This document shows positions 1 to 61,070 of a stretch of 64,000 nt of DNA, in pieces; position 1 is the first letter of the stretch, and the number at the start of each line of letters is the position of its first letter. Below the pieces are notes generated by a model. It was given only the letters and a program-made list of their open reading frames with translations. It ran no database searches and had not been told where the DNA came from. Where the stretch lies: assembly GCF_907164915.1 (NCBI RefSeq), contig NC_061867.1, positions 46,782,242-46,846,241 of the forward strand, given 5' to 3'. A program made the translations under genes and the position numbers. The stretch is from Impatiens glandulifera. Its lineage: Eukaryota; Streptophyta; Magnoliopsida; Ericales; Balsaminaceae.

Positions 1-1196
1 TCTATGATTAGTATTAATTTTCTCGCTCCACTTGTACAACTTGAATCTTTTTCCTCTGATAAAGGTATATTTGCTCTCTATGATCGACTTTCTTTCTCTT
101 TCATTTCTGAAGGATAGAAAGTAGAATCCGTGATTATTGATTTTGATCATCTCCCGACCATAGGATTCCCACTAACCCATCAGCGTTCTTTTAATCTCAA
201 CAAATGGTGCCTTCATGTTGCCCATAAAGTAACCAACTATGACAAACTCGCATGCCTTTACGCATTTTCTTCAATTTCTGGTGGGAGCTCAAACCGGTGC
301 GGATGATCAAGTGTAATTACCTTTGGGTATAAGGTGTCTATTTGGAATTTTCCCTTTTCTAGATTGTTCATGGCATTTTCATTCCACACCTTTCCTTCTT
401 TCCAGGTTTTGTTTGGGTTGCTCATGATTATATACACTTTTGTTTTATTACATTTCGAAATTTCCTTCATGGCGTCAACCGTCCACTTGATCACTTCATC
501 ATATTGGTCTTTGTTGAAGAGATTCCAATTCTTTAGATAGTGAATGTTGAACTGAGCATTCAACTGATCATTTCTTTCCTGGGGCATCGTAATCTTCTGT
601 TTATTAACTTGGAAAAATAGCTTCTTCATATGGTTTCTCAGTCTTGTCAAATTTTCTATTTCATTTTTACTTATTGACCACGTTAGACCAGCAGTAGGAT
701 CCTTGTTATCAACCTAAGTAAATTCTTTGTTAGGAATTGCAGCAGTAGGAGGAGTTGAAGAGATGACTGTTTCAGGGTTTATATCTTTCCTGACTTGTTT
801 GTTCTTTTCGGCCCATCTAACCTTTGTATTTCCCACAAAATCGTTGCCTTCAATTGTTCCAATCTTCTTTAGAATATCCCCTTCAGTGCTCTTCTCTCGT
901 GCACCAGTTTTTCTCTTTTGAATGCTATCAATTGGAATTTTAGGATCCAAATTAACGAGTGGAGAAAACGCACTCATTTTCAATATCTTAGGGTTAACCT
1001 CGGGTGTCACGGGTTCCTTGGGATTTACTTTAGTATTCTTCTTGGAACTTTAGTTATTTGTCTTCATGTTTTTCTTTTCTTTGATTTTCGATCCATTCTT
1101 AACCTTCTTAGCTATTTTAGAATTATTCGATCCTGTTATTTGATCGATCCTTTCAATTTCAACCCTTGTTTTGGAAGAACTATGCCCCTTTGTTTT
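1..1196 (-). pseudogene. LINE ORF1 fragment (DUF4283 region and N-terminal linker), copy A
   Basis: This is a degenerate minus-strand ORF1 of a plant L1-type LINE. It aligns to 34,746-35,920 of the longer LINE copy. The readable pieces are 258-650 (ends DHPHRFELPPEIEENA) and 714-1,010 (an N-terminal linker with KMSAFSPLVNLDPKIPIDS). The frame is broken between them. At about 1,196 the LINE match stops and AT-rich DNA equal to 40,337 onward begins, so about 4.4 kb present in copy B is missing here. The element continues leftward out of the window. No function is expected. Confidence 0.75.
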
Positions 1197-2027
1197 AGGT
1201 TAGATTATTTATATATTAGAAATGTTAGATACGTTAATTTGTTAGATTATAATTCTAATCCGAGTAAGTTTACTGAGTATAATTTAACCCAAGTGTAAAT
1301 TTTCCGATAAGCTGACGACATTTCTAAATCGTGACGTGCATCCGATAATTTTATTATCGTATTATTGAAAAAAAACTAAACATATATTCATTATTTCTTA
1401 CTTTCTCTAATTGTTATTTTTATTTGAACGTCAAACCTAATTTATTTTTATTAAAATATGCTCAAACTTTGAATTACATTGTATTTGCACAATTTTATTA
1501 ATTTACTACTAGTGATATTTAAGGGACCAAAAAGTTAGGAAGTGATAAATATATTACTTAGTTTGATATTTTAGGTTATTTTAACGTTTCTCTTATAATT
1601 GTTTTAAAATCAATTATCACATTAATATTATTTTAATCATTAAATTATTTAAATGATTTATTAAAATATCTAAATATTTTATTTTTATTAATTTTAAATT
1701 TTAAATTTTAAATACAAAAATTTATTTTAATAATTTATCTTTAATAAATCTCAACTAATCTTTACTTTAATCAAAATATTATATATTTGTATATATTTAA
1801 AAACTATTCAAAACCCAATATAAAACAAGCTCTTCAACATATTATACACATGTATATATCTGAAATTAGTAATTAGAATGTGTTTTAAAAAAATAATAAT
1901 AAATAAGTTATTATGCAACTAATAAAATTATTATTTTTTTTTTAATTTTAAAATGTAAAATTTTATTAATTTGGTTTTATATAATATTTTTATTGTATCT
2001 ATTTAAGACCTATCTATCTGTATATCA
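1197..2027. other. AT-rich noncoding tract, duplicated at 40,337-41,166
   Basis: No gene is seen. The sequence is extremely AT-rich with short runs of attttaaattttaaa type. It is nearly co-linear with copy B, which shows it is part of the duplicated unit rather than LINE sequence. Confidence 0.6.
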
Positions 2028-3006
2028 AGTTCTCGCACAACAATATATACATAATGCCGTTCATGAGATTTTTTAGGCCTTAGGCGAAAGCATGAAATTG
2101 GAGCCCTACGCATAAACTCAAGATTTTATTCCTTTCTAGGACCCTTTTCAATCAATAAATCTCTTGTTTTATTATCAAGATTATCCCATAGGATCATATA
2201 TATATACTAGGGCGTTATCCACGAGAGAGATAGAATGGTTGTTCGTTTGACTATCGTTTTCGGGAATGATATTTATTTCCTCCACATTCTCATCTACATT
2301 AACTATATTAATTTCTTCAGCATTTATCGCTTCAGTGGAGTCTAAATTTTCAGAAGCTTTTGTTCTTTTAACAAATTTGTCAAGCGCACCACTTTGAGAT
2401 TTAACAAATTGTTCTTCTAATTCATTCATTTTTCTTTTTTCATATCCAGACAAATATTTTTTCGGCGCCATCAAACAAGTAAACTATTTTCAAAGATCTT
2501 TACGGCTTAACCACACAATACACAATCTCTAAACAAAGCATAAAAATAAATAACAATCAAACCCTGATGTTGAATTTTCACTTTTAATGGTTAAACCTTA
2601 CCTCAAGGCTCAACCCAGCGAAACAGAGCCACCGTCGAAATTATTTTGTTGTCGGTTTCGTTGTCGGTTTCGTTATGAGTTTCGTTGTCGATGTAGGATA
2701 CAGAGACTGAGAGAGACAGATAGTGAGACAGACAGTAGGGTTTTCAATTTTTTGTTCTGATAGTGTTAGTTTGTTTCTCTATTTGGGCTATAGAGTCTTG
2801 GGCCAAAAAATCTAACATCATACAAAAAATTAAAGAATAAGAAACTAAAAATCCTTACTAATACCTAGTATCTATAAAAAAAATGGATCCCTTTTTGGTC
2901 CTAGGCCGTGGCCTAGGCTGCCTACCCCTTTTTGGCTTGTCAATTTAGTTCTTAAAAAAATTGTATCGATAAATTGTAATAAGTTAACGTTGTTGGTGCG
3001 AGAACT
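2028..3006 (-). mobile_element. Short TIR DNA element (hAT-like), copy A
   Basis: The ends are inverted repeats. The right end is TGTTGGTGCGAGAACT. The left end is its complement with one base missing (AGTTCTCGCAC-AACA). The copy B version has a perfect 16-bp pair. Inside, near both ends, are GC-richer blocks with ccta/tagg words, and a minus-strand exon like the N-terminus of hAT/ZMYM1-type transposases. No 8-bp target duplication could be recognised outside the repeats, so the true element ends could be slightly different. It is nonautonomous: there is no catalytic or dimerisation region. Confidence 0.55.
2181..2474 (-). pseudogene. hAT/ZMYM1-like transposase N-terminal exon, frameshifted
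   Basis: The 97-residue reading frame begins MMAPKKYLSGYEKRK and contains QSGALDKFVKRTK, a lysine-rich start followed by a GALDKFV box. This is typical of the N-terminus of plant proteins annotated as zinc finger MYM-type 1-like or TTF-type hAT transposases. Compared with the copy B frame (41,270-41,623), a 5-bp deletion near 2,190 changes the end from the YDP-NWDNLDNKTRD block to an early stop. A promoter-like region rich in gagaca and tgagac words lies upstream at about 2,680-2,760. The family call is from recalled motifs, not a search. Confidence 0.5.
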
Positions 3007-3098
3007 CGAGAGTTTGTGATTAAACAATATCTATATTTATTTTTATTTATCAATAAAAAGGATTTAATCAGCAGAACATTGAATCAAAATAATATAAT

Positions 3099-5733
3099 TT
3101 AAGGACAGATTCCAGAATAACCGGGTCCTCCGTAAAATATAGAATTACCAAAAACAAGTGCACCATAACATGGACTAGCTGTCATAAAAACTTCATGCAA
3201 TTCTTCAACTGGATTTCTGTATTGGTCATAAACTTTAATTTCAGATACAGTACTTGTTCCATTTTCATGGGCATATAGTCCATTTCCCATTTGAGTAGTT
3301 GTGTGGTGACCTTCATTTTCCTTATTAAGAATCTCTCCACCAAAATCCACTCTATCAGCATATTCACTCAATGAAGTGAAGAGATTCTTAGGAAAATATC
3401 CTATGATAATACCATTTACATATAGCCACCAGTGTCCATCCTCACCATAATCCTGTAAAAAAATTTTGTTCAAACATAATAAATATATTGGGCCGCAACC
3501 CATCAGTCAATCTTCTGGTTTTGATTTGCAATTAAATACAGTTTTATTTTTTCAATTATAATTTAAATTGAAATGGCCCAATAATTATTAATTAAGGCTC
3601 CCATTTGAGACATTTTAACTTTTTTTTCAAATGAATAAAATATTAGAGTTGTTTTTGTTATAACTTAATAAATTAATTATTAAAAGTTTATAATACGTTT
3701 GAATGGTTTCAAAATACTAGTTAGATTTACCTTATAGACCATAATTGTTAGGAAAGTTAATTGCCCTCCAAGAGTGGAAGGAGAAATGGGTTGACCAAGT
3801 TGAATGCTGAAATCAATTTGTACAAATCCAGCGCAATCATGGTCATAACAACCTGTAGTATTGTAACCATCTCTCTGTATAAACAATAAACCAGTTCTAT
3901 CAATTTAACGAATATTTGGTTAAATTGATTAATCCTAACATACACACCCACTTAAGGCTTGTTCGGATTCAAATTTTTTAAATAACTGTATTATATAAAA
4001 CGTAATGATCGGTGATAATGTTAAAGATATTAGAAATTTTTGGTAAAAAATTTAGGAGTATTAATATATAATGATAAAATAAATAAAAATATTATTTAAA
4101 ATATATGGTATTTTAGTATTTTTTTTTTTTTGAGAACGCTGGGTTCCGCTACTCCGATGGAGTGCGACTAATCCCCGCGGGTTAAGTACATAGCCCACAA
4201 ACATACTTAACCAATTAACCAGGCGCAGAACATGCCGCCTGACGGGCTCGAACCCAGGACCTCATGGAGGCCTGGGGGATATCTACCTCTTGTTACCACT
4301 AGACTTAAATAATGTTATTTAGAGAGAAGTAGTGAAATAATATTTAATTATGTTAAATTATTTTAAATAATTCTATAAAAAAATGTCTTACTTACTGTCC
4401 AAAATATGAATAATCTTGGTTGATCATCACCATATTTTATTGGATAAACCTGGGGTAGTATCAACAACAACAAAAATAAAACTGGTTAATTTCTTTACTA
4501 TAATTTCTAAATTCTCACGTTGAAACATTTTTATACTTACTATCCATCCGACTTCAATGGTATTTGTGTTTGAACCATTTCCCGAAGTAATCCATATTTG
4601 AGCTAAACTAAATTCATTATGCTCGACTTCAGGTTTCCATACCGTAAACGTTGCACTTGCTCCAAATAAGCGACCATAATTTTGGACTACAGCATACTTT
4701 AATGAACAATAGAAAGAATGATATAAAATATCAACATATATAATATTAATATTTTTTTTCTAAAGTGCAATTATTGTAGGTTGGTAATAATCTTTATACT
4801 ATAAAAAAAATTAAATATATATCGCTTAATTTTGAAGTTATATTTTGTATTGATAATGCTATTAGGTTTAAATGCTTTATTAAATGAAAGTTGAGTTGAG
4901 TTCTTTGATTACCTCGTGCACCTCTTCGTATGGGTTTAAAAATAAGCTACTATTGAAATGAGGCGAAGGGTGTTTGCGAGTGATAGAATTTGTACTCCTT
5001 CTAATGGGAACAGTTCCTTCTGGGCATTTTCCGTATTTTTGCCATTCTTGAGATATTTGTCCATTGGATGTTGATTCCATTTTGATTTCGATGGGGTAAG
5101 AGCTATGTTCCGTCTAGTTGAATTTGAATTATCAAACATTTGTATAAGATTAATTTGTTTTTCTTTTTCCTAGTATATATATTAATGCATTATAGTATTT
5201 TACTAGATCGGGAACTCAAACTATGTTTGAAAGAAAGAATTAAATATTTCATATGAATATTGAATAGATGAAATATTGTTCTAAAATATATCTTAATATA
5301 TATTAACAAATTTATTAACATTTTTTCCGTTCAAACCGAACTTCACTACATTTCTAAATGTTTTAAAATAAAATTGACAAATTCAATCAATAAAACAAAA
5401 TTAATAATACCTTTAAATCTTTAGTATTATCAACTATAGGACCATGGTTGGATGCAAGTTGATTATTCATGTTAACACAATCAATCACATCATCACCCTA
5501 CAAAATAAATGATATAAGAAAATATAATAAAGATGATAAATAATCCATATATACATTGAATTTAGAATTGGACAAGAATTATAATGACCCACTATGGTTT
5601 GAACAGTGTCCTGGTCCTTTAAACCCTTTGAACTCTTTGTTGTCCCAGAAACATAGTATATAAATTGCCATGTTATCAAGGTTACTAGAAATATTGAAAA
5701 AACAATATTAATATTATGTTTCTTGAGAGCCAT
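3099..5733 (-). CDS. Neprosin-family glutamic peptidase, copy A (seven exons, exon 1 donor damaged)
   Basis: Exons on the minus strand are about 5,590-5,733, 5,411-5,497, 4,913-5,113, 4,541-4,696, 4,396-4,449, 3,731-3,874 and 3,099-3,452. Exons 2 to 7 join in phase with GT-AG borders and give 331 codons before the stop. Exon 1 encodes a membrane-inserting signal (VFSIFLVTLITWQFIYYVSG). Exons 2 and 3 hold the activation peptide (GDDVIDCVN; EWQKYGKCPEGTVPIRRS). Exons 4 to 7 hold the neprosin domain, with NTIEVGW and DFGGEIL likely carrying the catalytic glutamate pair, GCYDHDCAGF, and the C-terminal YGGPGYSGICP. The family consists of secreted prolyl-cleaving or related plant peptidases. Where copy B has GT after exon 1, copy A has GG (5,588-5,589). 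The nearest GT, one base on, would put a stop at once in exon 2. The gene may therefore be a pseudogene, or may use another first exon. Confidence 0.8.
4119..4302 (-). mobile_element. tRNA-derived SINE in neprosin intron 5 (copy A only)
   Basis: On the minus strand this GC-rich insert starts near ctagtggtaacaagaggtag, has a Pol III B-box-like gggttcgagcc, and ends in a poly-A (poly-T on plus at about 4,119-4,131). The same intron of copy B (near 43,290) lacks it entirely and runs straight from agtatttt to gacttaaataatg. It was thus inserted after the duplication or lost cleanly from B. The exact target duplication is blurred by the poly-T. Confidence 0.82.
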
Positions 5734-5772
5734 TAAAGAGTTTATATTAAAAATGGTTTCTTAAGTTCCTTA

Positions 5773-5786
5773 CTATTTAAATATAG
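5773..5786 (-). promoter_or_regulatory. Candidate TATA box of neprosin copy A
   Basis: On the minus strand CTATATTTAAATAG lies about 40 to 53 nt upstream of the ATG at 5,733 and is identical in copy B. Position and sequence suit a plant TATA box, but the surrounding DNA is so AT-rich that chance matches are common. Confidence 0.35.
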
Positions 5787-5789
5787 ATT

Positions 5790-6593
5790 GATTAAACAAT
5801 AACTAGACATTATAATAACATCTTTCTTTTACTTTTGAATTTTTTTTTCTAATTCTTGAAATATTTTCTCTTTTATGACCTGTTTTAAAAGAAAGTTTTG
5901 ATAGCCCAATTGTTATTTGTAGTTCAACTTTGTGTATTTTTTTAAATGAGTCATAAACTTTAAATTTATATATATGTGCCTCAAATTATTATAATTTTTT
6001 TATCATACAATTTTTATATCTTTATAATAATCTTGAATGAATAAATAATGATTATATATATGATATAATTATTTTAAAAAAAAATTATCGTATTTTTTTA
6101 ACAATATAATTGTTTAAATGTTATAGATGTTATTTTATATTATTTGTAATGACAATCGTTCTAATTATTTAGCAGAGATTCTTTTATTATAGTTTGATTT
6201 GATTTTCTTAATCCATTATTATTATGAAATAAAAATATATTGTACTTATCTGGAAGAGTGATTGATATTTTAATTTTTTATAATTAATTATTTATTAAAA
6301 AAAATTGATCAACAATAATTAATTTAATATGATATAGTAAATTTAAATATACTATAACATATGTATTTAATTAATAAAAATTATCCCATAATATTTTATG
6401 CATTTCAATTATATAGTTTTTCATTCAAAGGTATCAAAACCTTCATTTTACAATTAATTCTTATCGGTAAACTCATTTCTAATAGTCTTTTCTTTTATTT
6501 ATGGTTAATAATAGTCATTTTGTATAATCGATTTTATTAAATTAATGATTAAAATTTCAATACATAACCTATTAATTAAACAAAATCTGACCA

Positions 6594-6643
<50 letters not shown>

Positions 6644-6710
6644 AATTAATTAAATTAGACAAAAATGTATACAAGTTGTTTATTTTTTACCCAAATAGAT
6701 AATAAATAAA
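5790..6710. other. AT-rich intergenic tract
   Basis: No gene is seen between the neprosin promoter and the next LINE derivative. It holds a TA microsatellite at 6,599-6,638. The tract is co-linear with 44,790-45,798, where copy B has an extra insertion of about 80 bp near 45,010-45,090. Confidence 0.6.
6599..6638. repeat. (TA)n microsatellite
   Basis: This is an uninterrupted TA run of about 40 bp, with a counterpart at about 45,686-45,723 that is interrupted by a tt. Confidence 0.9.
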
Positions 6711-6949
6711 TTTTTATTTTATTTTTGAAAAACAGCTTAACGTTATTTCATTAAAAATCTCAAAAGTGGGAGAGGGTCAAAATTAAAGTTAGGCAATCTC
6801 TATCTTTGATTAAAAGATGACAAACAACGACCTAGAGTATCTTATTGGAAATATCAAACACACAAAAATTATAGTAAAAAACAACAAAAGCATACAAGGC
6901 CTACAGTTTTAAAATTCTGAATCTAGTGTGAACTTCCTTTTTGACTACG

Positions 6950-8748
6950 CTTACTCTGCTTTAGAATCCCAATTTGCATTCCTCAAAACCCAATTTGCAT
7001 TCCTCGAATTCTAGCAATTATATTTATGTCGCATCCTCACTTATTTGACTCTAGGTTTTACTATCACAGATCAAACTATTGCATATGATGATGTTTATTT
7101 TTGAGTTGCACATTTAATGTCTTTAACTTTGCCTGAGTTGTTTCGATCTACTTTTATAGTCTCCTATTCACTTTCCTCCACTGCTTTTCTATCACTTCCA
7201 TCTGCTAATTTTCCATTTCTTTCATCCTCCTGATTCTTCACATTTTTCTTCCTCTAATTCTTTTTCATTTTCACCCTCTATTTCTTCTTCTTTATCTGAT
7301 TCTTTATCTTCTCCTTCCTCTAATTTTTCATCTTCTCCTTCTTTTGAATCTCAACATTTTCATCATCTTCTTATTCATCTTTAGTTTCCTCTAGATGTTT
7401 TCCAGTTCAGGATTCTTCAATTTTATTTTCCTAAACTTTCTCATTCTGCTCCTGAACTTTTAGGCTATAATTGTGTTGCTGAACTTTCAAGATCTTATGT
7501 TGTTCTTCAATTGTTTTTTCACATTGATTACTCACATGTTCAAAAGTATTGCAGAATGCACATCTGTTTGGCCTCCATTCATATGAAATATCCATGATTG
7601 TGGGCTTACCTCTTCTGTCAATAACTGTCATTTTTTTGTTAGAGTACTTCTAGGGTGCACTTCAATGTTTATCATAACATATGTGATGTGTTCTCTTTCT
7701 TCCGTGATTGAGTCCATATACAATGGTTTTCCTAATAGACTAGCAAAATGACTAAATGCTTCTGCATTGTACATATGAGCCAAAATGTTCCTTAGTTTGA
7801 ACCAAATTTGAGTTGTTTCTTTCGGTTTTCTACGTAGGTTCAATCCTTCAGACCATCTTTCCGGCTTCATGAAGTTTGACCCAACATAAGTATGTCCCAA
7901 CTCCAGAATATTCTCCAAATTTGTTCCCTTCTTGAACTTTAGGAAATAAGATCATTGATATTTGCAGATACATTTTCCAGTCCAATATTCTCTCATTACT
8001 TTAGCAATACATCCTTAGTGACCAAGAAAGATACACGATTTTTTCCTATATAGTTACCAACAACTACATATTCCCAGTCTTTAATGCATTTCTCTTCAAC
8101 TTCAAGGGATAATTTAAACTCAAAAGGAGATTTGAGAATCTCAACCTTTGGTTTAAAATCCCCCAAGTAAATTTTGCCTTTATATTGTACCTGAGTTTCA
8201 ACTTTCTGTTCAGTGTTTTTCTTCCAAACTTCATTTACTTTCCAACTGGAGTTACTTCTGATAGTGTAATTATTGGTGTTTGGGCACTTCATTAGCTCCC
8301 GCATTGTCTCTACACACCAACTAACTATCTTATCATATTCTTCTTTTTTAAGTAAATTCCAGTTCTAAAGGTATTGAATATTAAGTTGGGCTATAAACTG
8401 TTGAGTTTTTTCCATGCTAAAAACAATCTCTTCTTTCTTCGCATGAAATAGCAATTTCGAAATTTGATTATTTAGTCCGTAGAGATTAGCCCTTTTATTA
8501 TATTCAACCCTCCATTTTCCATCTTTGTTGACTTCTGCCTGAATACTTTATGTCATTTTAGTTTTTTTCTGAGAATTTTCTTTATTTTCCTTCTGTTCTA
8601 TTTCAGCATTATCAGAACTCTATTTCTGCTCTATTTCAACATTCTCAGAACTCTATTTCTGCTTTGTTACAACCATCACTTTCTTTCTTGTATCAATTTC
8701 CCCGAATTCTTTTACTTTTTTTGCCTTATTTTTGTTCTTTTTCCCCAT
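6950..8748 (-). pseudogene. LINE ORF1 protein (DUF4283 + CCHC knuckle), degenerate
   Basis: This is an RNA-binding ORF1 of the plant L1 type, which normally coats LINE RNA. The readable blocks are 7,996-8,304 (WKVNEVWKKN, GKIYLGDFKPKVEIL and EYVVVGNYIGKNRVSF), 7,628-7,918 (LGHTYVGSNFMK, IWFKLRNILAHMYNAEA and GKPLYMD, the DUF4283 core) and 7,431-7,631. The last block has an intact CCHC knuckle, C-AF-C-NTFE-H-VSNQ-C. The C-terminal part is rich in Glu/Lys and Ser and ends with a basic stretch containing NANW repeats. Several stops and frame changes mean it no longer makes a full protein. Confidence 0.68.
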
Positions 8749-8960
8749 TGTTGAAGAGAATAACAAAGTAATAGAGAAGAGTAAATGCAGAAACATGCAA
8801 TTCAGAAACCCTAAAGATTTAACGACTAAATCGCTCCGAAATACAACCTTCCAAAAATACCCAAGATTAGAGAACTAATCGACGCTCACAACTAGGAAAC
8901 AAGTGTCTAGAAAAATATCGATGCTATTCTAATAGTTTTAGGGTTAGCGTCACTAACTTC

Positions 8961-9052
8961 GTGAATCGTGCCGTTCGTGCCGATCGTGTTGTTTGTGCCG
9001 ATCATGCTGTTTGTGCTGATCGTGTCGACCGTGCCAATCGTGCTGATTGTGT
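8961..9052 (-). repeat. 9-bp tandem array (GTGCCGATC type) in LINE 5' leader
   Basis: On the plus strand about ten 9-bp units read gtgccgttc, gtgccgatc, gtgttgttt, gtgccgatc, atgctgttt, gtgctgatc, gtgtcgacc, gtgccaatc, gtgctgatt. The array sits 200 to 300 bp upstream of the ORF1 start. The same unit recurs at the 5' side of each other LINE with a visible 5' end in the window. Confidence 0.8.
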
Positions 9053-9174
9053 TTCAATCGACGAGCGACGTTTCTTGCTTTTGAATCTCCAAAGCTTTTC
9101 TCTTCCTTTTTATAGGTGGGGAGGGTTTGGGTTCTGATAATAAATAAACTTAATAATTGATAATTAAGAATATT

Positions 9175-9755
9175 TTTGGGGAGGAAAACGACTTAGCGTC
9201 ATTTTATTAAAAATTCCAAAAAATGGGAAAAAAAACTACGAGTTTAAGAGATCATTCTAGACAGACCTAGAATGATTTTAAAGTTGTATCATTCTGAATA
9301 AAAACAAAAACGTAAATGAACTATCTGATTACAATGTTTTCGTTCCTAATGATTTTAGTAAACGGTAAATTCCAATTCTTGCTAATATTCCAAATATACT
9401 CCTTACTTGGAACTTTTCTCCACGTTCCCGCAAGTACGCCACAATCCGAGACTATGTCTCTCTATAATTCTTCAACACTTCTGCGGGTTCTACCATAGAC
9501 TCTCCATTACGTTCCTGCCAAATGTTGTAAATTACTGCTCTAAAGCCGCACTTGAATACGCTTGTTGTGAATCTGTTTCTCCTTTGGAAACTTATCAGCT
9601 TCAGACTTTTAGAAAATTTGTCCCAAATTTCTAATACTATACTGCAACTCCCAAACAAGTGATCAATGGTTTCTTCACTTCCGTTGCATAGAAGACAACT
9701 CATGTCCGGGATGCTCATATATACTTGTTAATACAGTCACGAGTGCTGAGTCTTT
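9175..9755 (-). mobile_element. 5'-truncated LINE 3' end (zf-RVT), copy A
   Basis: The minus-strand fragment ends with the shared LINE 3' sequence (tttattaaaaattcc and aacgacttagcgtc on plus). It encodes the C-terminal reverse-transcriptase zinc-binding domain at 9,452-9,718 (CLLCNGSEETIDHLFGSCS). The copy B version runs on to 49,230. Here the match stops at 9,755 at the word gctgagtctttc and jumps to sequence equal to 50,563, so about 1.7 kb was deleted in A relative to B. Confidence 0.8.
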
Positions 9756-9829
9756 CAAGGTCGCGGTTTCATTTGTTGTGGTCGCGGTTGCTATTCGCTT
9801 AGAATCGTTTGTCAAATTAAGAATGTGCG

Positions 9830-9897
9830 CACGAGCACGAATCACGATCGACACGATCAACATGATCAACACAATCGGCACGAACGACACGGTATCG
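9830..9897 (+). repeat. 9-bp tandem array in LINE 5' leader (plus element)
   Basis: The units read gatcgacac, gatcaacat, gatcaacac, aatcggcac and gaacgacac, the complement of the GTGCCGATC unit of the other LINE 5' ends. The plus-strand element therefore carries the array in the same orientation relative to its transcript as the minus elements. Confidence 0.75.
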
Positions 9898-10046
9898 ACT
9901 CTAATAACTAGATTGGTCATTCATCTACAAAGCTTGGTTGTAAGGTTAGAGTTTCTAGTTTTCCATATTTTGTAATAATTAGGGTTTCTAGTGTACCTTA
10001 TTCTGTTATTGCTCCATTTTGTTGTTGTGTTCTGTTATTCATCAAA

Positions 10047-11739
10047 ATGGGAAAAAGAAAAGAAATAAGAATAAGGAAGTCAGATAATTTGTTGTGGAAG
10101 GTTAAAGGGAGGTAGGTGAAAAAGAAATCGATAGAATTGCTGAAAAAATTATCCATGAAAAACAGGAATGTAACAAAGGTAAATAACCAATTACTGATTA
10201 AATTCTGATGAAAGTGCAACAGGAAAACATGGAAAAATTGAAGGAACATGGAAGGTTCGGTATAATGAAAGAGCAAACATATTTGGACTTAAAATTCAAA
10301 TCACAAAGCTACTAATGCATGCAAAGAAAGACGAAATTGTGTTCAACAAATAGAAAATACAACAAACAACCGTCTAATTGAATATACATTATCTTCAAGA
10401 TTCTAACCTACTGAAGAAGGAAGAATACGAAAAGATAGTGAAGTGTTCAATCAAAACAATGAGGGAGCTAATGAAGTCCCCAAAATCAAAGACATATACT
10501 ATCATGAGCAATTCCAACTTAAGGTAAATGAAGTCTGGAAAAAGAATGCAGAAAAGAGAGCAGAAGATCATGCATACAAAGGTCAAATCTACTTGGGTAA
10601 GTTTGAAACAAAAGTTGAGATTCTCAACTCTCCTTTTGAATTTAAATTGCCCACTGAAGTGGAGGAAAAATGCGTCAAAAAATGAGAAAATGTAGTTGTT
10701 GGAAACTACAAAGGAAAGAACCGTGTATCTTTCACAGATTCTAAGGAATCATTAATGAAACAATGGGTGCATAAGAGACTGGAGAAGGTTTTTACAAAAC
10801 ATCCATGATCTCTATTTCTACAATTCAAAAGGAAATGAACTTGAATGATATTCTGAAAATTGGGCATACTTATATTGGATCCAACTGTATGAAGTTGGAG
10901 AGATGGTCTGAAGAATTGAGCCTTCTAAGCAAGTCAAAGGAAACAACCCCAATATGGTTCAAACTTAGGAACATCCCAACACACATGTATAATGTAGAAG
11001 CTCTAAGTCACTTTGTTAGTCTATTTGGGAAACTATTATATATGGACCCAATTACATAAGGAGGAGAGCACCTTACTTTTATTAGAATAAGCATGAAGTG
11101 CATCCTCAAAGTACACTGCCAAAGAACATGGCAGTTGTTGATAGGAAGGGAAAGAGCACAGTCATGGAAATCTCACATGAATGGAGGCTAAAAAGGTGTT
11201 CTTTCTACAATACTTTCCAACATGTTAGTATTAAATTTGCAAAAACAATTGAGGAAGAATAGAAAATCATGAAAGCCCAGGAAGCAAAAAAACAACAAAA
11301 TGAAACGATATAATCAAGAATGGAAGAGCATATTGTGGAAGTCAAGAATAGCGATAAAAAAGACAAAAATGAGGAAAATACAGAGGAAGAAAGAAAGAAG
11401 GATTCTGAGTAAAAGGAAAGTAGCGAAAGAAAGAGATTAAAGGGAATCAAGGTGAAGAGGAAAATAAAATTTTCTGTAATGCAAATGATTATGATGAAAA
11501 TGAAAGATGAACCTCAAATTGTTGTTGAGGAAATTCAAGAGGAAAACACCGAGAATTTCAAAGATGAAACAGAGAATTATAAAGTCGATAAAGAATATTC
11601 CAAAACAGATGCGGAGTCTGATGTTGAAGCTGAACATAAGGAAGACAAGAAGATAAAAAAAGTAAAAATCTTGAAATTTTCAAAAACAATTCTTTCTATC
11701 AAATCAAACAGACTTGTACAAAGAGAGAATTCAAAATGA
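10047..11739 (+). pseudogene. LINE ORF1 protein, degenerate (plus strand, copy A)
   Basis: Blocks match the minus-strand ORF1: 10,443-10,685 (FQLKVNEVWKKNAEKR, GQIYLGKFETKVEIL), 10,805-11,059 (KIGHTYIGSNCMKLERW, IWFKLRNIPTHMYNVEA) and 11,452-11,739 (a Glu/Lys-rich linker). The knuckle at about 11,200-11,240 reads C-SF-Y-NTFQ-H-VSIK-F, with two of three cysteines lost. The copy B version keeps all four ligands. Stops separate the blocks, so this is a relic. Confidence 0.65.
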
Positions 11740-12124
11740 GAAACAACAATACACATCATTATCTTCAATACAATCTCCTTTTATCGTTAGAGGAAGAGAA
11801 AGATGAAGGGGAAGAATGTATCTCAATGAAAATAGATGGCATGCGAAAATCCCAGGCTGGGATGGTTATGTTTGAATGTAGTCTTTTTTGTTTTTAATCT
11901 CTGTTTTTTATAATGTATGAATGCTACTAATCAGTTTTTTTTAGGGTCTTTTGATTGTCATCCTTAATCATAGTTAATGTTTGTCTAGCTTTTATTTATG
12001 ACCCTCCAACTTTTAGGATTTTAATGAAATGGTTTCAACCGTTTTCACAAAAAAATTAATAAATAAATAATACTCTTTCATATAATTTCTTCAAATTTTT
12101 ACCCCATGAAATTCAAATATTTGT

Positions 12125-12290
12125 GGCGTAATCTTATATGTTGAAAAAAAATAAAATAATTTATCCATCTTCTCTCTCCTTACACTTTTCTCTTTTTCAA
12201 TTCAATAATGTGATGCAATTTTATTCTCTCTTCCATTTTGTTCCCCAATTTCCCTCCCCTATCACATATTAAAGTTTTTGAAATAAAATA
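12125..12290. mobile_element. MITE relic, ttctctctcc/ccctcccctatcac family (half element)
   Basis: The pyrimidine-rich stretch resembles the right half of the hairpin at 23,535-23,745 and the 17,573-17,735 element. The matching left half is not evident. It is present in copy B at about 52,930-53,095. Confidence 0.35.

Positions 12291-12656: not shown

Positions 12657-12659
<3 letters not shown>

Positions 12660-12688
<29 letters not shown>
12660..12688. repeat. (TA)n microsatellite
   Basis: This is a TA run of about 28 bp. The equivalent site in copy B (53,455-53,586) is expanded more than fourfold with TATC interruptions. Confidence 0.85.
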
Positions 12689-12692
<4 letters not shown>

Positions 12693-18830: not shown

Positions 18831-18849
18831 GTCAGTTTATTCCTGGTTT

Positions 18850-39540: not shown

Positions 39541-39543
39541 ATT

Positions 39544-49230: not shown

Positions 49231-50465
49231 ATATTAAGAAATTTAAATTAATAGAAAATATGCTATATCTTATAATATTCGCAATAGATAATAATTTGAA
49301 ATTAAGTAGAAAATGTATAAGGAATAAAATTATAATAACGAATATATTAATAATATACTGTCAAAACAAAAATTATGTCAAATTATGTATAAATTAAAAA
49401 TTATCATATATAGTAAAACCTACGGATAAATAAAAACAGATAAATAATATAAAAAAGAAAGTATAACAAAAATAATTAAACACAAAATATTTCATTTTCT
49501 AATCTTGTTTAAACAAAATAAATATTTGAAAAATACTTTTTAAAAAAATGTAGAAGTTGTTTAGAAATACAAGTATTTAGTTTAAATATATTTGTACACA
49601 CTAATCGGTATTAATTCAGGTATTAATTCATCGCCATTATTAACCTATTTATTACCCCTTCGCATTTTGCATCAACTAACTAACTGAATTCCTACCATTT
49701 TATATAATTAAGCATTACCTATTATATAAATTTTTATAATTTATTCAAAACAAATAAAATATTAATTTATCATCATTATTTATTTTTATCCTTACTAAAA
49801 TTTTCACCAAGCCAGCGTGTTATTACTTACACAACTATATATATAATTATGGTTAATTTAAAAATGTCTAAATTATCGAGTCGAGAACTCTCTGGTTAAT
49901 TTGAAAATGTATGTGACAGTAAATAAATATTTGGATCGGAAAGTAAATTAATCTGTTCATAAACTTGAAACAGTTAATTTTACAAAATAAAATAAAATAT
50001 ATTTTATAAAATTTCAAAATTACAAATTAAGAAATTCTTAAGTACATATTTTAACCAACTAAGTTAATAACTTATTATATTTCAAATTTAACCAAAATTT
50101 GTGGATGAATGTACCTCCCTTGTTATATTTTTAATATTTTAATAATATATATATATATATGAATTATTTTGAAAATTTATATATATATAAATTAATTATT
50201 ATTATTTTTTTATTATTTTATTCTTTTTTATAGTTGACACGAGAAAATTAATAATAATTTTTATACTTAAAAAAAATTAAATTATTAATAAAGAGGGAAA
50301 TATTATTCGTGAATTTTAAGAAATAAATTAAAATTTTAATATTTATTAGGTTACAAAAATATATATACATACATATAATTATAAATAAAATTTATCGTAA
50401 TGGTTAAATGATCTATCTTCCACACTACTGGAGATACTCACATATATATTAATAATACTCTTTCT
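49231..50465. other. AT-rich tract resembling 14,640-15,910
   Basis: No gene is seen. The stretch 49,850-50,400 shares words with the AT-rich tract at 14,640-14,820 and 15,690-15,910 (ttaaccaactaagttaataa, tatagttgacacgaaa-like, tattaggttacaa). It is therefore a further dispersed copy. It is deleted from copy A (junction at 9,755). Confidence 0.5.
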
Positions 50466-50479
50466 TAACAGGAGATTTC

Positions 50480-50697
50480 ACGGCACGATCGGCATGATCA
50501 ACACGAACGACGCGATCGGTACGATCAGCATGAAAGGAACGAATAACACGATCGACACGGTATCAAGGTCGCGGTTTCACTTGTTGTGGTCGCGGTTGGT
50601 AGTCGCTTAGAGTCGTTTGTCAAATCAAGAATGTGCACACGATCGGCACGATCAACGTGATTAGCACAATCGACACAATCGGCACGAACGACATGGT
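50480..50697 (+). repeat. Double 9-bp array in LINE 5' leader
   Basis: Units such as gatcggcat, gatcaacac, gatcggtac, gatcagcat, gatcgacac (50,480-50,553) and gatcggcac, gatcaacgt, aatcgacac, aatcggcac (50,639-50,697) are in the same 9-bp register. The leader appears internally duplicated, which is typical of LINE 5' regions that carry repeated promoter units. Confidence 0.72.
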
Positions 50698-50850: not shown

Positions 50851-52560
50851 ATGGGAAGAAAGAAAATGAATAAGAATAAGGAAGTCAGATAATTTGTGAT
50901 GGAAGGTTTAAGGGATGTAGCTGAAAAAGAAATCGATAGAATTGCTGAAGAAATTATCCATGAAAAACAGGAATGTAACAAAGGTAAAGAACTAATTCCT
51001 GATTAAATTCTAAAGAAAGTGCAACATTAAAACATGGGAAAATTGAAGGAATATGGAAGGTTCGGTATAATGAAAGAGCAAACATGTTTGGACTTAAAAA
51101 TCAAATCACAATGCTACTAATGCATGCAAAGAAATGCGAGATTATGTTCGACAAATAGAAAATACAACAAACAACTGTCTAATTGAATATACATAATCTT
51201 CAATATTCTAACCTACTGAAGAAGGAAGAATACGAAAACATAGTAAACTGCTCAATGAAAACAATGAGAAAGCTAATGAAGTTCCCAAAATCAAAGATAT
51301 ATACTATCAGGAGAAATTCCAACAAAAGGTAAATGAAGTCTGGAAAAAGAATGCAGAAAAGAAAGTAGAAGATCATGCATACAAAGGTCAAATCTACTTG
51401 GGTGAGTTTAAAACAAAAGTTGAGATTCTCAACTCTCCTTTTGAATTTAAATTGCTCACTAAAGTGGAGAAAAAATGCATCAAAGAATGAGAAAATGTAG
51501 TTGAAGAAAACTACAAAGGAAATAACCGCGTATCTTTCACGGATTCTAAGGAATCATTAATGAAACAATGGGGGGCATAAGAGACTGGAGAAGGTTTCTA
51601 CAAACATCTATGATCTCTATTTTCTACAATTCAAAAGGAAATGAACTTGGATGATATTCTGAAAATTGGGCATAGTTATATTGGATCCAACTATATGAAG
51701 TTGGAGAGATGGTATGAAGATTTGAGACTTCTAAGCAAGCCAAAGGAAACAGTCCCAATATGGTTCAAACTTAGGAACATCCCAACACACATGTATAATG
51801 TAAAACTCTAATTCACTTTGCTAGTCTATTTGGGAAACCATTATATATGGACCAATTATAGAGGGAGGATAGAACCTTACTTTTACTAGAATAAGCATTG
51901 AAGTGCATCCTCAAAGTACACTTCCAAAGAGCATGACAATTGTTAATAGGAAGGGAAAGAGCATAGTCATGGAAATCTCATATGAATAGAGGTTAAATAG
52001 ATGTGCTTTTTGCAATACTTTCCAACATGTTAGTATTAAATGTGCAAAAACAATTAAGGAAGAATAGAAAATGATGAAAGCCCATGAAACAAAAAGCAAA
52101 AAAATGAAACCGAAGAATCAAGAATGGAAAAGCATATTGTGGAAGTCAAGGATAGTGATAAAAAAAGACAAAAATGAGGAAAATACAAAGGAAGAAAGCA
52201 AGAAGGATTCTGGGAAAAAGGAAAGCAGTGAAAGAAAGAGACTAAAGGGAATCAAGGTGAAGAATAAAGAAAAATTTATGTAATGCAAATGATTATGATG
52301 AAAATGGAAATGAACCTCAAGTTGTTGTTGAGGAAACTCAAGGGGAAAATACCGAGAATTTCAAAGCTGAAACAAAGAATTATAAAGTCGATAAAGAATA
52401 TTCCAAAATAGATGCGAAGTCTAAAGTTGAAGCTAAAGATAAGGAAGACAAGAATACAAAATTCAAGTTGAAGATAAAAAAATGTAAAACCTTGAAATTT
52501 TCATAAACATTTATTTCTATCAAATCAGAACAGACTCGTATAAAGAGAGAATTCAAAATG
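50851..52560 (+). pseudogene. LINE ORF1 protein, degenerate (plus element, copy B)
   Basis: It starts MGRKKMNKNKEVR. The DUF4283 blocks are broken by many stops. The knuckle near 52,000 is intact, C-AF-C-NTFQ-H-VSIK-C. The 52,071-52,283 stretch is a lysine/glutamate-rich linker (70 codons open). The last block near 52,380-52,500 is frame-shifted relative to copy A. Confidence 0.62.
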
Positions 52561-54115: not shown

Positions 54116-55527
54116 ATAAGTAAATTAAATTTATATATAAATAATAAAAAAATTAAGAAAAAAAATAAAACAATGTAAAAAAAGGTTCAAAATTAAATTA
54201 TTTTATTAATATATGTAATGTAGTCTACCCATTATCACTAGAATTTTTACACTGATATCTTTTTAATATTGTAAAACATATTTTTCAATAGAGAACGTTC
54301 AAAATTAAATTATTTTATTAATCTAAGTAATTTAACTCTAACCCTTCTTATTAGGTTTTTACATTGATGATTTCTTTTCAATCTTGGAAAAACAGATTTT
54401 GGTGATGCCCTCTCAATATTAGAAAATAGATTTTTCTCAATATTGTAAAACAAAATTTTCTATATTTACTCAATTTGGACCGAAATATATAAGTTTTTCA
54501 ATATGTAATCAAAATAGAGTTATGATATATTAAAAACCGATATATTATAGTCTAATATATGATTCAGTCAAATAACTCAACTAAATCGATGAATACTTAA
54601 ACAATTTTGAAATTTTAAAGATTATCAGTTTTGTTTTAAAATTATATTTAATTTGTTAAATATGAAGTTTAGATTATTATTATAATATATATTTAAAATA
54701 TGAGAAAGAAATATGTATATGAATAAATAAAATAAACCTTTTACTATTTTTTAGTTATTCTTTTTGTTAATTATATTTATTAAATAATTTTTTTTTTAAT
54801 TATTGCCTATTTCATGCCACATTTTTTAGTTTAAAAATTATTTATTATTAATATTTATAAACTTGATTTTTATATCTTTTTTAATAAATAAACATTTATC
54901 TAGAAATATTATTGGGTTTATATTTTTATACTTAATTTTGTTTGATTAAATCTTTTATAACTTCAAATTATGTAAGATATTTGAAAAATATATCAAATTA
55001 ACCTAATATTCTTTTATAAATCGACTAAGATTCTCTATGGGAAAGTCTAAAATATAAAATTAAAATTTATCTATAGACCTGTAGTAATATTTGGTAAATG
55101 GTAGAAAGAGATATAAATTATACCAATAGTGTTATAATTATGGTTAATTTTAAAGTGTTTTTGTGGAGAATTTAGGTGAGTTTGTATATATAATGAAGTT
55201 AAATGAATATTTTAGTTGGACAGTAACTTGATTCAACATTAGTTTTAAAAAATAAAATAAAAATATTATAAATTTCACACTTACAACATATTTTAACCAT
55301 CAAAGTTAAGATATTATATTTCCTATTTAATCTAAATTTTGATGCATATACTCTTAATTAATGTTTGATTGGTGATACAAAGATGTATAAAATTATTGGT
55401 ATAGTATAAATTATACTGTTTTAATATAGTGTTTCTTATAATTTTTAGTATTAATATAAATTTATACCCTTATATAATTTATACATCATATTAGGTGTAA
55501 AATAATAACTAGTCTTCCTAAAGATAA

Positions 55528-55566
<39 letters not shown>
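55528..55566. repeat. (ATT)n microsatellite
   Basis: There are about twelve ATT units, against about five at the equivalent site in copy A (14,987-15,007). Confidence 0.9.
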
Positions 55567-55568
<2 letters not shown>

Positions 55569-56572
55569 TTCATAATTTTTACTTTTCATTATACCCTTTA
55601 TTAATATTATATAACTTATTATTCATATTTAATATATATTTTAAATAGTTTAATATTTTAATTATTTTTTAAAAACCATAATTTTATTAATTATTATTTT
55701 ATATATTTACTTATATTATAAATACTATTTTTTATTTTATATATTATTTTAATTTTATGATTATTTTATTATAATTATTAATAATATTTAAATTAAATAA
55801 ATATAATTTACCGTTTATATTATAATTAATTTTATATTATAATTAATTTTATATTATAATTAAAATTATATTAATTATTAAAATAATAATAATACAATAA
55901 TTTATAATGTTAAACAATATTATTTATAATATAAATAAATAAATAAAATAATAATAATAATTTTAAATTCATATTTATACAACTTATACTTTATACGTAT
56001 ACCAAACACTTAACTATAAACCATATACTATTTATTATAATTTATACCAAATAATTAATTATAAACTATATACTATCTATTATAATTTATACCAAACATT
56101 AATAAACTATATAACTTATATTACCATATATTATTTATACCTCGTTACAATTTATACCAAATATAATATGTATTACCTACCAAACTTGTTATATTCTCAA
56201 TATTTTAATAATCTATATATATTACTTGTTATATTTCTAATATTTTAATAATCTATATATATTATATATACACATGAACTATTTTTAAACATTATATATA
56301 TATATAAATAAATTAATTAATTTTTTTATTTGTCTCTTTTTTATAGTTGACACGAAAATAATAAATAATAATTTTTATACTAATTTTTTTTAAAACTTAT
56401 TAATAATGTGAAAAATATTATTAGTGAATTTTATAAAAAAAAATCAATTTTATTGAAATTTATTAAGTTACAATATATATATATATATATAAATAAAATT
56501 TATCAATCACAATTGGTTTAATATTTAAATTGATCTTCTTCTACACTCGAAATTACTCTCATATATATATAA

Positions 56573-57230
56573 GGGAAGAATGTCAATTTTATCATTAAAC
56601 TATAACAAAATATTCACGTATATCACTAAATTAATTTTTGAATTTAATGTTCATTTATGTCAATTTTTGAGTTTTTGTTAAATGATAACACTTATGATTG
56701 ACCTGTCATTTTTTAAAACTAATATATATTATATATTTATTTTTATTCATTATTTTTAAATAATAAAACTTAATTTACATTTTCAATGACATTAATCAAA
56801 TAAATTATACATTTTGAGAAACATTAACAATAATTCACTTTTTTTTAATTAATATATTTTTAACATTTATTTTTATTAACATTTTTAAATAATAAAATTT
56901 CGTTAATAAAATTAAATATTAAAAATATATTAATTAAAAAAAAAATTATTGTTAATTTCTCTTAAAATATCTAGATTGTTTGGTTAATGAATATGAAAAT
57001 ATAAAAATTTTATTATTTAAAAATTATGAATAAAAAAAAAAATATATGATATATTAATATAAAAAAAATGATATATCAATCACATGTTTCATTATTTAAC
57101 GGAAAACTTAAGGGAGTTAGATGTTTTTTGGTAACTAGTTCAACTACAGTGGTATGAACGAACAAAAATTAGTTCAGTGATATACATTAATATTCAATTA
57201 TAGTTCAATGATAAAATTAACATTATTCCC
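56573..57230. mobile_element. Long-TIR nonautonomous DNA element (MULE-like), copy B only
   Basis: The two ends are inverted copies of each other over at least 65 bp. The left end is gggaagaatgtcaattttat and the complement of the right end begins gggaataatgttaattttat. Both continue through tatatcactaaattaattt-type words. There is no coding frame. The empty site is seen in copy A (actctcacatatatattaat, about 17,390). The target region is TA-rich, so the duplication length cannot be read. The superfamily (Mutator-like or other) is inferred from the long TIR beginning with G. Confidence 0.82.
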
Positions 57231-57384
57231 AATATATTAATAATACTTCTTCAAATTTTTACCTCATTAAATTCAAATATTTGTATTTATGTAAATTATA
57301 AAAAAAATTAATTTATATTAATATAATTTTATATGAATTTATAACTCACCTTGAATTATAAAATAAGAAGTAATGAATTATAAA

Positions 57385-57869: not shown

Positions 57870-58075
57870 GTATCAAGACAAACGATGAAGAAAAATTGGA
57901 AAAATGGAGAGAAAATAACCGGAGTGGTACAATCTAATTGGTTAAAAAAATAAAATAATTTTTCTTTATTCTCTCCTCACACTTTTATTTTTTTCAACCA
58001 TTATGAAATATTACGTCATTCTCTCTTAAATTCTTTCTTAAATTTCTTTCCCTTATTACTCCTGTAGTATAATAT
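57870..58075. mobile_element. MITE (gagagaatg hairpin family), second locus, copy B
   Basis: This corresponds to 23,535-23,745, with the same arms and similar length. Confidence 0.5.
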
Positions 58076-61070
58076 AATAAATTTTTGATATGAAATATTA
58101 ATTGAATATCTTATCTTTTCTTTAAGGGTGTGTTTTGTAACCCTTGGTATTAGAATTGACATTGAAATTGGAGAGTACAATTTCTAATTTTAGGTTTGAA
58201 TTATAATTATGTTTTAAAATATTTTTTTAATATTTTTCTAACAAAATAACTTATTATTTTATCATTTAAAATACGATAAAATTTTCCAATCGATATTTTC
58301 TTTTGGAATTTAAGATGTTAGAATATTGAACCGATGTATTTTATTTAATATATGAAGTTAACATGTTGAACCGATATTTTTTTTAATGAAAATCGAAACT
58401 TAAAAAAATTTCTTGACCCTTGATCTATGCTAATTAGTTATGTCAAACTAATATTTTAATAAAATAGATAATATATATATATATATTATTATTATTTTTA
58501 ATCACTGTAAAACTTTTAATTAAATTACAATTTTATAATTTTCGAAACACATAGAAATGTCAATTTCAATTTTACTCATCCAAACATATTGTTTTTTAAA
58601 ACGGTTAGTTGTAACTTGTATTATATAACTTGTATTATAGGTAATAATAATAATCATAATAATAATAATTATAATAATAAAATAAAGAAAGAAATAAAAG
58701 AAAAGCAAGAAAATAAAATAAAATATAAGAAAATAAAGTAAAATGAAAGTTTAAAATTAAATTATTTTATTAATCTCTTTTCAATATTGGAAAATAGATT
58801 TTAATGATGCCTTTACAATCTTAGAAAACATATTTTTATAAAAAAATCGTCAAAATTAAATTATTTTGTTAATCTAAGTAATTTAACTTTAACCCTTCTT
58901 CATTAGGTTTTACATCAATTATGTTTTTTCAATCTTAGAAAATAAATTTTAGTGATACCTTAACATCTTCGAAACAGTTTTTTCTCATTGTAAAATATTT
59001 TTTTTCTATATTTACTCATTTTAAACTGAAAAATTTATAAATTTTTTAATATATAGTCAAAATAGAGTTATAAATATTAAAAACTGATATATTATAGTCG
59101 AATACATATGATTGAGTCAAATAACTCAACTAAATCTATGCAGATTTAAACAATCTAAAAAATTTTAATGTTTATCAGTTTTACTTTTAAACTATATATT
59201 TAATTTGTGAAATATTGAGTTTTAATTATTATTATTATTATAATATATATTTGATATACGAGAAAGAAATATGTATATGATTAAAAAATAAACTTTTTAC
59301 TATTTTTGAGTTGTTCTTTATTGTTAATTATATTTATTAAATAATTAATTTTCTAGTATTGTCAATTCCATGCCAAATTTATTTAGTTTAAAAATTATTT
59401 ATAATTAACATTTTTAAACTTGATATTTATATCTTTATTTAATAACAAAATCACCTGTCTATAAATATTATTGGGTTTATATTTGTATACTTATTTTTGT
59501 TTAATTAAATCTTTTACTACTTCAAATTATGTAGGATATTTGAAAAATATATCAAGTTAACCGAAAATTCTTTTAAAAATTCAATTGGACTAATATTTTG
59601 TACGACAAAGTCTAAAATATAACTTCACTTATAATAGATTTTAAATTTATCTATAAACAAATCGTAATGTTTGGTTGGTGTTAAAAAATGTATAAATTAT
59701 ACCAATAGTGTTATAATAGGGTTTTTTTTTATTGTTTTATTATTAATATAAATTTATATCCCTATATAATTTATACATCATATTTGGTATAAAATTTGAT
59801 AAAAAATGATAACTAATCCCCTAAACACAACAATATTCTTATATTACTTAATTTTAATTTTTTATTATAGTCTTTATTAATATTATATATATAAAGAATG
59901 TAGTATAAGTTGTATAAATATTAATTTAAAATTATTATTATTTATATATTTACTTATATTATAAATAATATTATTTATTATTTTAAATTATTTATAAAAA
60001 TATTGTAATAAGAAAAAATTAAAATATATATATATATATTACACCATTTTATAATTTATGCCAAATATCAATAACCTATACAATTTATATTTTCCTATTT
60101 GGTTACAATTTATACTTTCATACAACTTATACTTGTATAATTTGTATATACCAAACTTGGTAAAATACAATGCATGAACATATTTAATCCTTATTGAAAA
60201 AATAATTATTACACTTAATCATAAGCTTTAAAATACTTAGAAAAATATTTATAAAACTCATCAAATTCATAACATAAAATTTTTAGTTTAAAAATATATA
60301 AAATTCACTATAATTAAATTAACTAAATATGTATTGTGGGATGTAAATGTAATTGTAATTGGTATAATTTCTCTCAAAATGTGATTAACTGATATATACC
60401 ATATTATTTAGGTAATTTGATGATTAACTTTAATATTAAATAAATTATGATATTTCAAGAAGTATGGTTTAAGAGACTAAAGATGTTAGCATTTAATTTT
60501 CAGTTATAAAAATAAAATTTATTGTATTGAATTTAAAATAATAATATTTAATTATCATAATTAAGTGTCAAAGTGCTGGTCATTCATCACTTATATTTAA
60601 CAAAAAAAAATAATTTTTATTATCGACACTATTTCATTGGTTTGCTCGGTTTATCTATTTCTTCACTTATTATTATTTGTGTGATTGTTGGATAATTTAC
60701 ATTAAAATTTTAGTCTTTATTTGACCCAGGCGTGACAAATTAACACCCATGCCTGACGATTCCATGATGAAGGTCCTAGTCAAGTCAGAAAATGGTCAAT
60801 CGTGCTTCCAACACAGACAACAATCGCGGGACACTCACGGGCGAAATAAGAACGTGTAGCGCGGCATGAGGTTTTGGCCTTCTTCCCAAGAAGACAACGA
60901 CAACGACGACAACATGAAAATTTTCCATCATTTGAAGAAGACAACTTTTCTGTTTCTCAACCAATTGTTTTCATTTAAAAAGAGAAATGATCGCGAAAGG
61001 ACCATGATCATTTCTCATAATTTCTTGCATGAAACTAGCGACTGAACATATCCGATTTGTCCGATGAATG
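58076..61070. other. AT-rich tract, duplicate of 23,746-26,477
   Basis: No gene is seen. It is co-linear with copy A except for the inverted segment at 59,891-60,024 and loss of the long TA run. The last 330 bp are GC-richer and match 26,150-26,477. Confidence 0.55.

Follow-up and report, generated by a model that had tools for sequence, protein, structure and literature searches.

Two adjacent units of a probable diversifying neprosin gene array in Impatiens glandulifera

The window, a stretch of 64,000 nucleotides from Impatiens glandulifera (G000:C6:46,782,242-46,846,241; assembly of 654 Mb in 1,110 contigs), probably consists of two adjacent units of a neprosin gene array of 0.7-0.97 Mb on contig C6. 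Judged from sequence comparison, the array would be one of diversifying secreted peptidases that is kept by unequal exchange and gene conversion, and the two units belong to two gene types, one to a type named Y here and the other to a type named X. The window had originally been predicted to hold a tandem segmental duplication with one neprosin gene in each copy. The duplication is real but larger than first described, and with its bounds corrected the prediction was partly confirmed.

The self-comparison proposed with the original prediction recovered a chain of colinear blocks on the same strand, with positions 1-26,478 matching 34,746-61,071 (78-94% identity, blocks of up to 4.3 kb, far beyond chance). 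The copies are adjacent, have the same orientation and are colinear through their non-coding flanks, as expected of a tandem segmental duplication, and A and B were each found to carry one neprosin gene. When 200 kb of flanking and overlapping sequence around the window was included, the chain continued, with 26,473-34,745 matching 64,150-71,546 at 90-93% identity. The predicted colinearity of the copies was thus upheld, but not their ends at 26,477 and 61,070, since the copies run on to 34,745 and 71,546; the break at 26,478/61,071 arises because a long terminal repeat (LTR) element interrupts B, and is not a copy end. Unit A (34,745 bases, 34.7 kb) adjoins unit B (36,801 bases, 36.8 kb) head to tail with no spacer. 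A third unit, C, starts at C6:46,853,790 on the same contig directly after B, and a partial unit, P, which is without the gene part, lies upstream of A from about 46,757,941. The units in the window are as follows (H denotes a further unit of the array).

1 to 34,745: unit A, X-type (H-like) over at least 1,046-4,309 and Y-type right of 4,376
34,746 to 64,000, extending beyond the window to about 71,546: unit B, X type
26,473 to 34,745: distal part of the repeating unit in A, with a decayed long interspersed nuclear element (LINE), minus strand

The LINE in the distal part was recognized by RVT_1 and by DUF4283 in an open frame spanning 34,745, together with an endonuclease match under the cut-off.

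With the 5' gene part of A as the query (best 40 of 140 candidates scored), the gene was found to recur at least 25 times on C6 between 46.67 and 47.64 Mb, with 14 copies at least 91% identical to A. Thirteen of these define units A to M (46.783-47.445 Mb, at least 93% identity to the 5' gene part of A), and the 14th, at 47,424,081, is 91% identical; the 11 older copies (72-83%) all lie between 46.67 and 47.64 Mb. A single copy of the 25 is reversed (47,540,603). Three more close units, u1 to u3, were found with older fragments on the unplaced contig C214 (134,112 bases). The prediction that more units lie beyond the pair was therefore borne out, on both contigs.

Both genes of the window have seven predicted exons and an open reading frame, and both contain the two domains PF14365 (Neprosin_AP) and PF03080 (Neprosin).

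3,099 to 5,733, minus strand: neprosin gene A, 375 amino acids; exons 5,593-5,733, 5,411-5,497, 4,922-5,113, 4,541-4,696, 4,396-4,449, 3,731-3,874 and 3,099-3,452
42,266 to 44,733, minus strand: neprosin gene B, 379 amino acids as modelled; exons 44,581-44,733, 44,399-44,485, 43,912-44,103, 43,534-43,689, 43,389-43,442, 42,896-43,039 and 42,266-42,619

The Neprosin_AP and Neprosin scores were 53.3 and 199.6 bits for A and 51.7 and 202.4 bits for B (cut-offs of 39.2 and 22), and residues 39-376 of B aligned to a solved neprosin with E=6e-66. Like Nepenthes neprosin, a glutamate peptidase with the same two domains (PDB 7zu8, 9qr8), the array copies have an activation peptide followed by a catalytic domain, and the protein starts with a hydrophobic stretch that was judged by eye to be a putative signal peptide. 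An open reading frame was found in 13 of the 16 close copies (A to M on C6 and u1 to u3 on C214), which are the sample for all gene comparisons. An apparent frameshift in exon 7 of the Y copies was rejected because the splice acceptor is shifted, and with the shifted acceptor the frame is open in C, F, G, M and u3. All 13 open copies have the equivalents of the catalytic dyad E188/E297 and of Q173, W175 and Y214 of Nepenthes neprosin (residue roles from the available part of PMC9343461). The position of Y136 differs from Nepenthes neprosin in two of them, B and H, which have H there, and the other 11 have Y. The gene looks functional and changing, and its product is predicted to be a secreted peptidase.

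The donor of exon 1 of gene B probably lies 3 nt further, at GAG|GT, which adds one codon. At the end of this exon (5,593 and 44,581 in the window), the X copies read GAG|GTTCAT and the Y copies ATAGTGGGTC, which needs another donor (with ATA|GTGGGT the frame is kept); the two types may be spliced differently.

The 16 copies fall into type X (B, D, E, H, J, L and u2) and type Y (A in its 5' half, C, F, G, I, K, M, u1 and u3). Identity over the 5' half of the gene is 97.4-99.1% among X copies and 96.9-99.0% among Y copies, and 93.4-95.6% between the types. Along C6, units A to M have the types Y X Y X X Y Y X Y X Y X Y, which makes 11 runs in 13 units with two exceptions (D-E and F-G); as many runs occur in 58 of 1,716 arrangements (P=0.034). 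Monomers of the same phase are more alike than neighbours (5' gene half, 97-99% compared with 93-96%), as in a higher-order repeat. A marker 21-23 kb from the gene (the linker marker) agreed in type with the gene in all nine units with a long match (eight informative, as A was the query); F, G, H and M gave short or no matches. A third marker showed the same X/Y split, with K in two pieces (92% and 98%), and it revealed a gene-less remnant of Y type between D and E. The start-to-start distances of pairs are 75.2 kb (A-C), 79.1 kb (B-D), 76.2 kb (I-K) and 81.3 kb (J-L). Within type Y, copies F, G and M make up a subtype, and an older neprosin copy follows each of them. Because the types mostly alternate, the simplest reading is that the recent unit of amplification was an X-Y pair of 75-81 kb, with a second arrangement in the middle of the array and at its right.

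Exchange between the units was evident from a compatibility test of 193 informative sites (0.089 against 0.226 when permuted, with none of 2,000 permutations as low), which indicated at least 31 recombination events. The clearest case is unit A. Its 81 diagnostic sites comprise 44 of Y type and then 36 of X type, with one other, and they define a single switch in the gene. The following features bear on the origin of A.

4,310 to 4,376: Y-to-X switch interval in intron 5 of gene A; exons 1-5 are Y-type and exons 6-7 X-type
35,928 to 40,338: segment of 4.4 kb in B, mostly also in C (all but about 0.9 kb) and missing in A
2,054 to 2,935: repeat element of 882 bp in A, common to A, B, D, E, H and J
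41,221 to 42,084: copy of the 882-bp repeat element in B

Right of the switch, A is 96.9-99.6% identical to C and 86.8-96.2% to B (19 windows of 500 bases, 4,501-14,000). In the left part of A, the junction without the 4.4-kb segment recurs in H (98% over 300 bases), and the 882-bp element is common to both. This element was not found in C, F, G, I, K, L, M or u1 to u3, and it has numerous copies elsewhere in the genome. Either one unequal crossover or a conversion tract would account for the switch in A. Four consecutive Y-type sites were found in E, from intron 3 into exon 4, and the 3' half of I, u1 and u3 is mosaic.

Selection was assessed on the open copies. The pairwise ratio of nonsynonymous to synonymous divergence (dN/dS) was 1.33 (0.77-2.78) for X-X, 1.31 (0.78-2.44) for Y-Y and 1.02 (0.65-1.72) for X-Y pairs. 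In each gene half, site model M2a fitted better than M1a, with twice the log-likelihood difference at 7.04 and 7.67 and a class of about 2.2, and none of 60 null simulations reached 7.0 in either half. The site-by-site posteriors of M2a were set aside, as variable sites were placed in the high class almost irrespective of position. The replacements are concentrated in one short segment, which is split by an intron.

43,666 to 43,929, minus strand: replacement hotspot in B, residues 139-152; end of exon 3 at 43,912-43,929, start of exon 4 at 43,666-43,689 and intron 3 between

The hotspot aligns with residues 130-143 of Nepenthes neprosin, which include H134 and Y136, and 12 of its 13 residues are variable (B residues 140-152; permutation P=0.00035). 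At the nucleotide level, variable sites number 19 of 39 in the hotspot, compared with 28 of 224 in the intron that separates its halves (P=1e-6), which argues against the import of one tract as the whole cause. The evidence for selection is moderate.

Several observations weigh against a diversifying array built of X-Y pairs. The overall dN/dS is not above 1 (intervals of 0.65-2.8; 0.83-0.87 under model M0, no different from 1), and recombination within a gene half can inflate site-model tests. The hotspot was picked after the data had been seen, and a second cluster at residues 323-336, with 11 of 13 residues variable, has no known tie to the cleft. Since dS (0.075) is above the intron divergence (0.049), part of the exon excess may be mutational. 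Three of the 16 copies (I, K and u1) are broken by frameshifts, I also by a nonsense codon. The position of H134 is occupied by G or E in all 13 open copies, unlike Nepenthes neprosin, for which the available part of PMC9343461 gives a loss of about 80% of activity in H134A, Y136A and Y214A and of all activity in Q173A and W175A. The alternation of types is imperfect (D-E, F-G) and its significance only nominal, and the order of the linker marker over 13 places is by itself non-significant (P=0.098). The D-E exception was accounted for only after the fact, by the gene-less Y-type remnant, and older copies lie between F and G, between G and H and after M. Finally, C214 may be another haplotype.

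The ratio not significantly above 1, the three broken copies and the transposon-derived sequence in several parts of the unit would all suit a neutral, transposon-rich segmental array, in which the neprosin genes are passengers under relaxed constraint and a dN/dS near 1 reflects loss of function. This alternative is rather unlikely, as the disabled copies are too few for neutral decay. In a neutral simulation (substitutions only, assumed base frequencies, kappa of 2, midpoint root), 13.8-14.6 of 16 copies were expected to have a premature stop, against one observed by substitution (copy I), and none of 1,000 runs on either tree gave one stop or fewer. Indel classes that are not multiples of three make up 25 of 29 in the introns against 4 of 8 in the exons, and the four in the exons are one alignment shift at a splice site and the three broken copies. 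The five invariant active-site residues in the open copies, the better fit of M2a in both halves and the clustering of changes also speak against it.

It is unlikely, too, that single units were duplicated serially without a two-unit register and that the types alternate by chance. The run test, which hinges on type calling, the order of the linker marker and the two breaks would allow it, but two other markers, 18-23 kb from the gene, track the gene types wherever they were matched, and the stretches from P to E and from H to L alternate fully by type if the gene-less remnant is counted. In addition, close pairs occur at long range: D and J, at a distance of 350 kb, have each other as closest relative and both carry the LTR insertion of B, and F and M, at 440 kb, show identities of 98.8% and 99.4% in the two gene halves.

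Open frames, conserved catalytic residues and the exchange of sequence among copies would also be expected if the array were kept for dosage, with near-equivalent copies raising enzyme output, conversion homogenizing them and no selection for new specificities. X and Y are nevertheless still distinct despite exchange, and the most variable segment aligns with H134/Y136, so that dosage appears improbable as the explanation. That A and B are two haplotypes placed end to end by an assembly artefact is scarcely credible: C214 with its three close units makes haplotype or placement problems possible in the region, but the aligned blocks of A and B reach only 78-94% identity and the units differ by insertions on the kilobase scale, 13 related units including the third lie within one contig, and in the 5' gene half A is nearer to u3, C and u1, and B to J, D and H, than A is to B, a pattern that two haplotypes cannot give. 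The exclusion of haplotigs on which the original prediction depended thus holds for A and B. As for C214 itself, u2 is nearest to L (99.1% and 99.4% in the two gene halves) and u1 in its 5' half is about equally near to A, C, K and u3 (98.6-98.8%), so that this contig is not simply the allele of one stretch of C6.

Under the preferred reading of two adjacent units in a diversifying array, an ancestral segment would have been duplicated into an X-Y pair, and the pair of 75-81 kb would then have been amplified by out-of-register unequal crossing-over. Exchange or gene conversion among misaligned units would reshuffle gene halves and short tracts. Selection would retain most copies as secreted zymogen peptidases and favour amino-acid change near the substrate cleft, and the array may serve as a reservoir of neprosin variants, most plausibly in extracellular proteolysis or defence. 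A stronger proposal, which we put forward only tentatively, is that the array is an active diversification system, in which amplified X-Y blocks and X/Y recombination in the gene would combine active-site segments into new cleavage specificities. Such recombination is exemplified by unit A and by E, whose short tract of Y type extends to the start of exon 4, and the logic would be comparable to that of recombining immune or venom gene arrays, here built on neprosin.

The insertions in the units were also compared. One interruption of the colinear chain is the LTR element of B.

61,071 to 64,000, continuing to about 64,153, minus strand: LTR retrotransposon in B, with gag and aspartyl-protease matches and LTRs of about 480 bp

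The element (3.1 kb) has its LTRs at 61,071-61,560 and 63,672-64,153 and the target-site repeat GAATG. It was ruled out as specific to B, since D and J carry it at the identical site with the identical target repeat; the site is empty in A, E and L. The Kimura two-parameter distance of 0.032 between its two LTRs lies between the X-Y intron divergence of 0.049 and the difference of about 1% among B, D and J in the 5' gene half, which suggests that the X/Y split came first, the LTR insertion second and the copying of B, D and J last; exchange between units can blur such distances. The original prediction had described copy-specific insertions in clean empty sites of the partner, and in the copies examined this was true of those at 15,916 and 17,797 in A and at 48,872 in B but not of the LTR element. 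The further claim that the pair records a dated series of transposon events was not sustained, as several insertions also occur in other units and A is a recombinant.

The other insertions of the window are listed below.

4,123 to 4,301, minus strand: SINE-like (short interspersed nuclear element) insert of 179 bp with an A-rich tail, in A only among the 16 copies
15,916 to 17,359: insertion of 1.4 kb in A, absent in B and P; the repeat also occurs at 29,378-30,777
17,797 to 23,483: insertion of 5.7 kb in A that neither B nor the upstream partial unit P has; begins CATTACAACAAAAAGG
48,872 to 50,562: insertion of 1.7 kb in B, absent in A and C
56,571 to 57,231: relative to A, insertion of 661 bp in B; it has terminal inverted repeats with an exact core of 12 bp and is flanked by ATATAT

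The 179-bp insert contains what we take to be a B-box-like motif, and no clear target repeat was found around it. The start of the 5.7-kb insertion is presumably CACTA-like; no matching right terminus was found for it, and a 237-bp tandem repeat (2.2 copies, 18,857-19,385) lies inside. An inverted pair at 7,476-8,523 and 10,240-11,283, also present at 46,555-47,601 and 51,045-52,080, is about 72-73% alike, and an open frame in its B copy matches DUF4283, which we assume to be LINE ORF1-like. The region at 6.7-8.9 kb of the window is a repeat with many copies elsewhere (79-90%). A very A+T-rich block (about 16% GC) is present twice per unit, at about 13,321-15,604 and 24,103-25,520 in A and at 54,147-56,200 and 58,707-60,160 in B (66-80% alike), and the 35-kb unit therefore seems to contain an older internal duplication. 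As for other host genes, the 95 open frames with starts between 5.8 and 30 kb matched only zf-RVT (3) and DUF4283 (2), apart from one weak match to DUF7708; the set comprised 250 frames of at least 55 codons, with those outside 5.8-30 kb covered only if among 20 scanned frames, and genes with short exons could be missed. Scans with Rfam at gathering cut-offs and for tRNA genes gave no match.

Elsewhere in the genome, the Neprosin profile gave at least 175 exon-level matches (best 150 of 262 candidates). Other clusters of matches were observed at C7:3.29-3.77 Mb, C1:53.2-54.3 Mb, C1:94.296-94.350 Mb (period of about 9 kb) and C2:0.98-1.04 Mb. Two neprosin copies in opposite orientation (77-82%) lie at C6:11.48-11.52 Mb with A+T-rich flanks that match in part, possibly an older source or an offshoot on the same chromosome. 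At C1:38.11-38.45 Mb, ten matches (71-73%) to 27.6-28.4 kb of the window occur on one strand at a spacing of 20-67 kb; this is perhaps another segment array that has only the distal part of the unit in common.

Tandem arrays of plant genes, such as resistance genes and S-locus F-box genes, evolve by unequal crossing-over and gene conversion. Birth and death of copies, chimeric genes and replacement hotspots in the functional surface are features in common with the neprosin array, which differs in having one recognized host gene per 35-kb segment, much transposon sequence and, apparently, copying largely in two-segment blocks. Centromeric satellites form higher-order repeats in which the monomers of one block differ from one another and equivalent positions across blocks are nearly identical. 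The neprosin array resembles them in this pattern within and between blocks, but its monomer is 35 kb and gene-bearing, and its about five to six blocks are irregular.

Neprosins are numerous in plants, and few have a known role; one is LOTR1 (PMC8794472, in the part available). The HOLO family of Arabidopsis comprises LOTR1 and 42 other proteins with both domains, with an average protein identity to LOTR1 of 38% according to the same part of that source. It is a large plant family with the two domains seen here, whereas 14 of the array copies have at least 91% DNA identity to A, and no array of 35-kb units is described for it in the available part of PMC8794472. Among titles and abstract openings, no neprosin array of this sort, or selection on one, was found in the literature.

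The array, its likely two-unit register, the exchange and a gene that looks functional and changing are each of a known kind, and no neprosin array that combines them was found among the titles and abstract openings covered. With many open, recombining copies whose changes are concentrated at a segment aligned with the active site, the array would allow a direct test of whether the substrates cut differ between X, Y and chimeric copies. It also offers a gene-bearing candidate, with a monomer of 35 kb, for the formation of higher-order repeats, in which shared transposon insertions mark the units of common descent.

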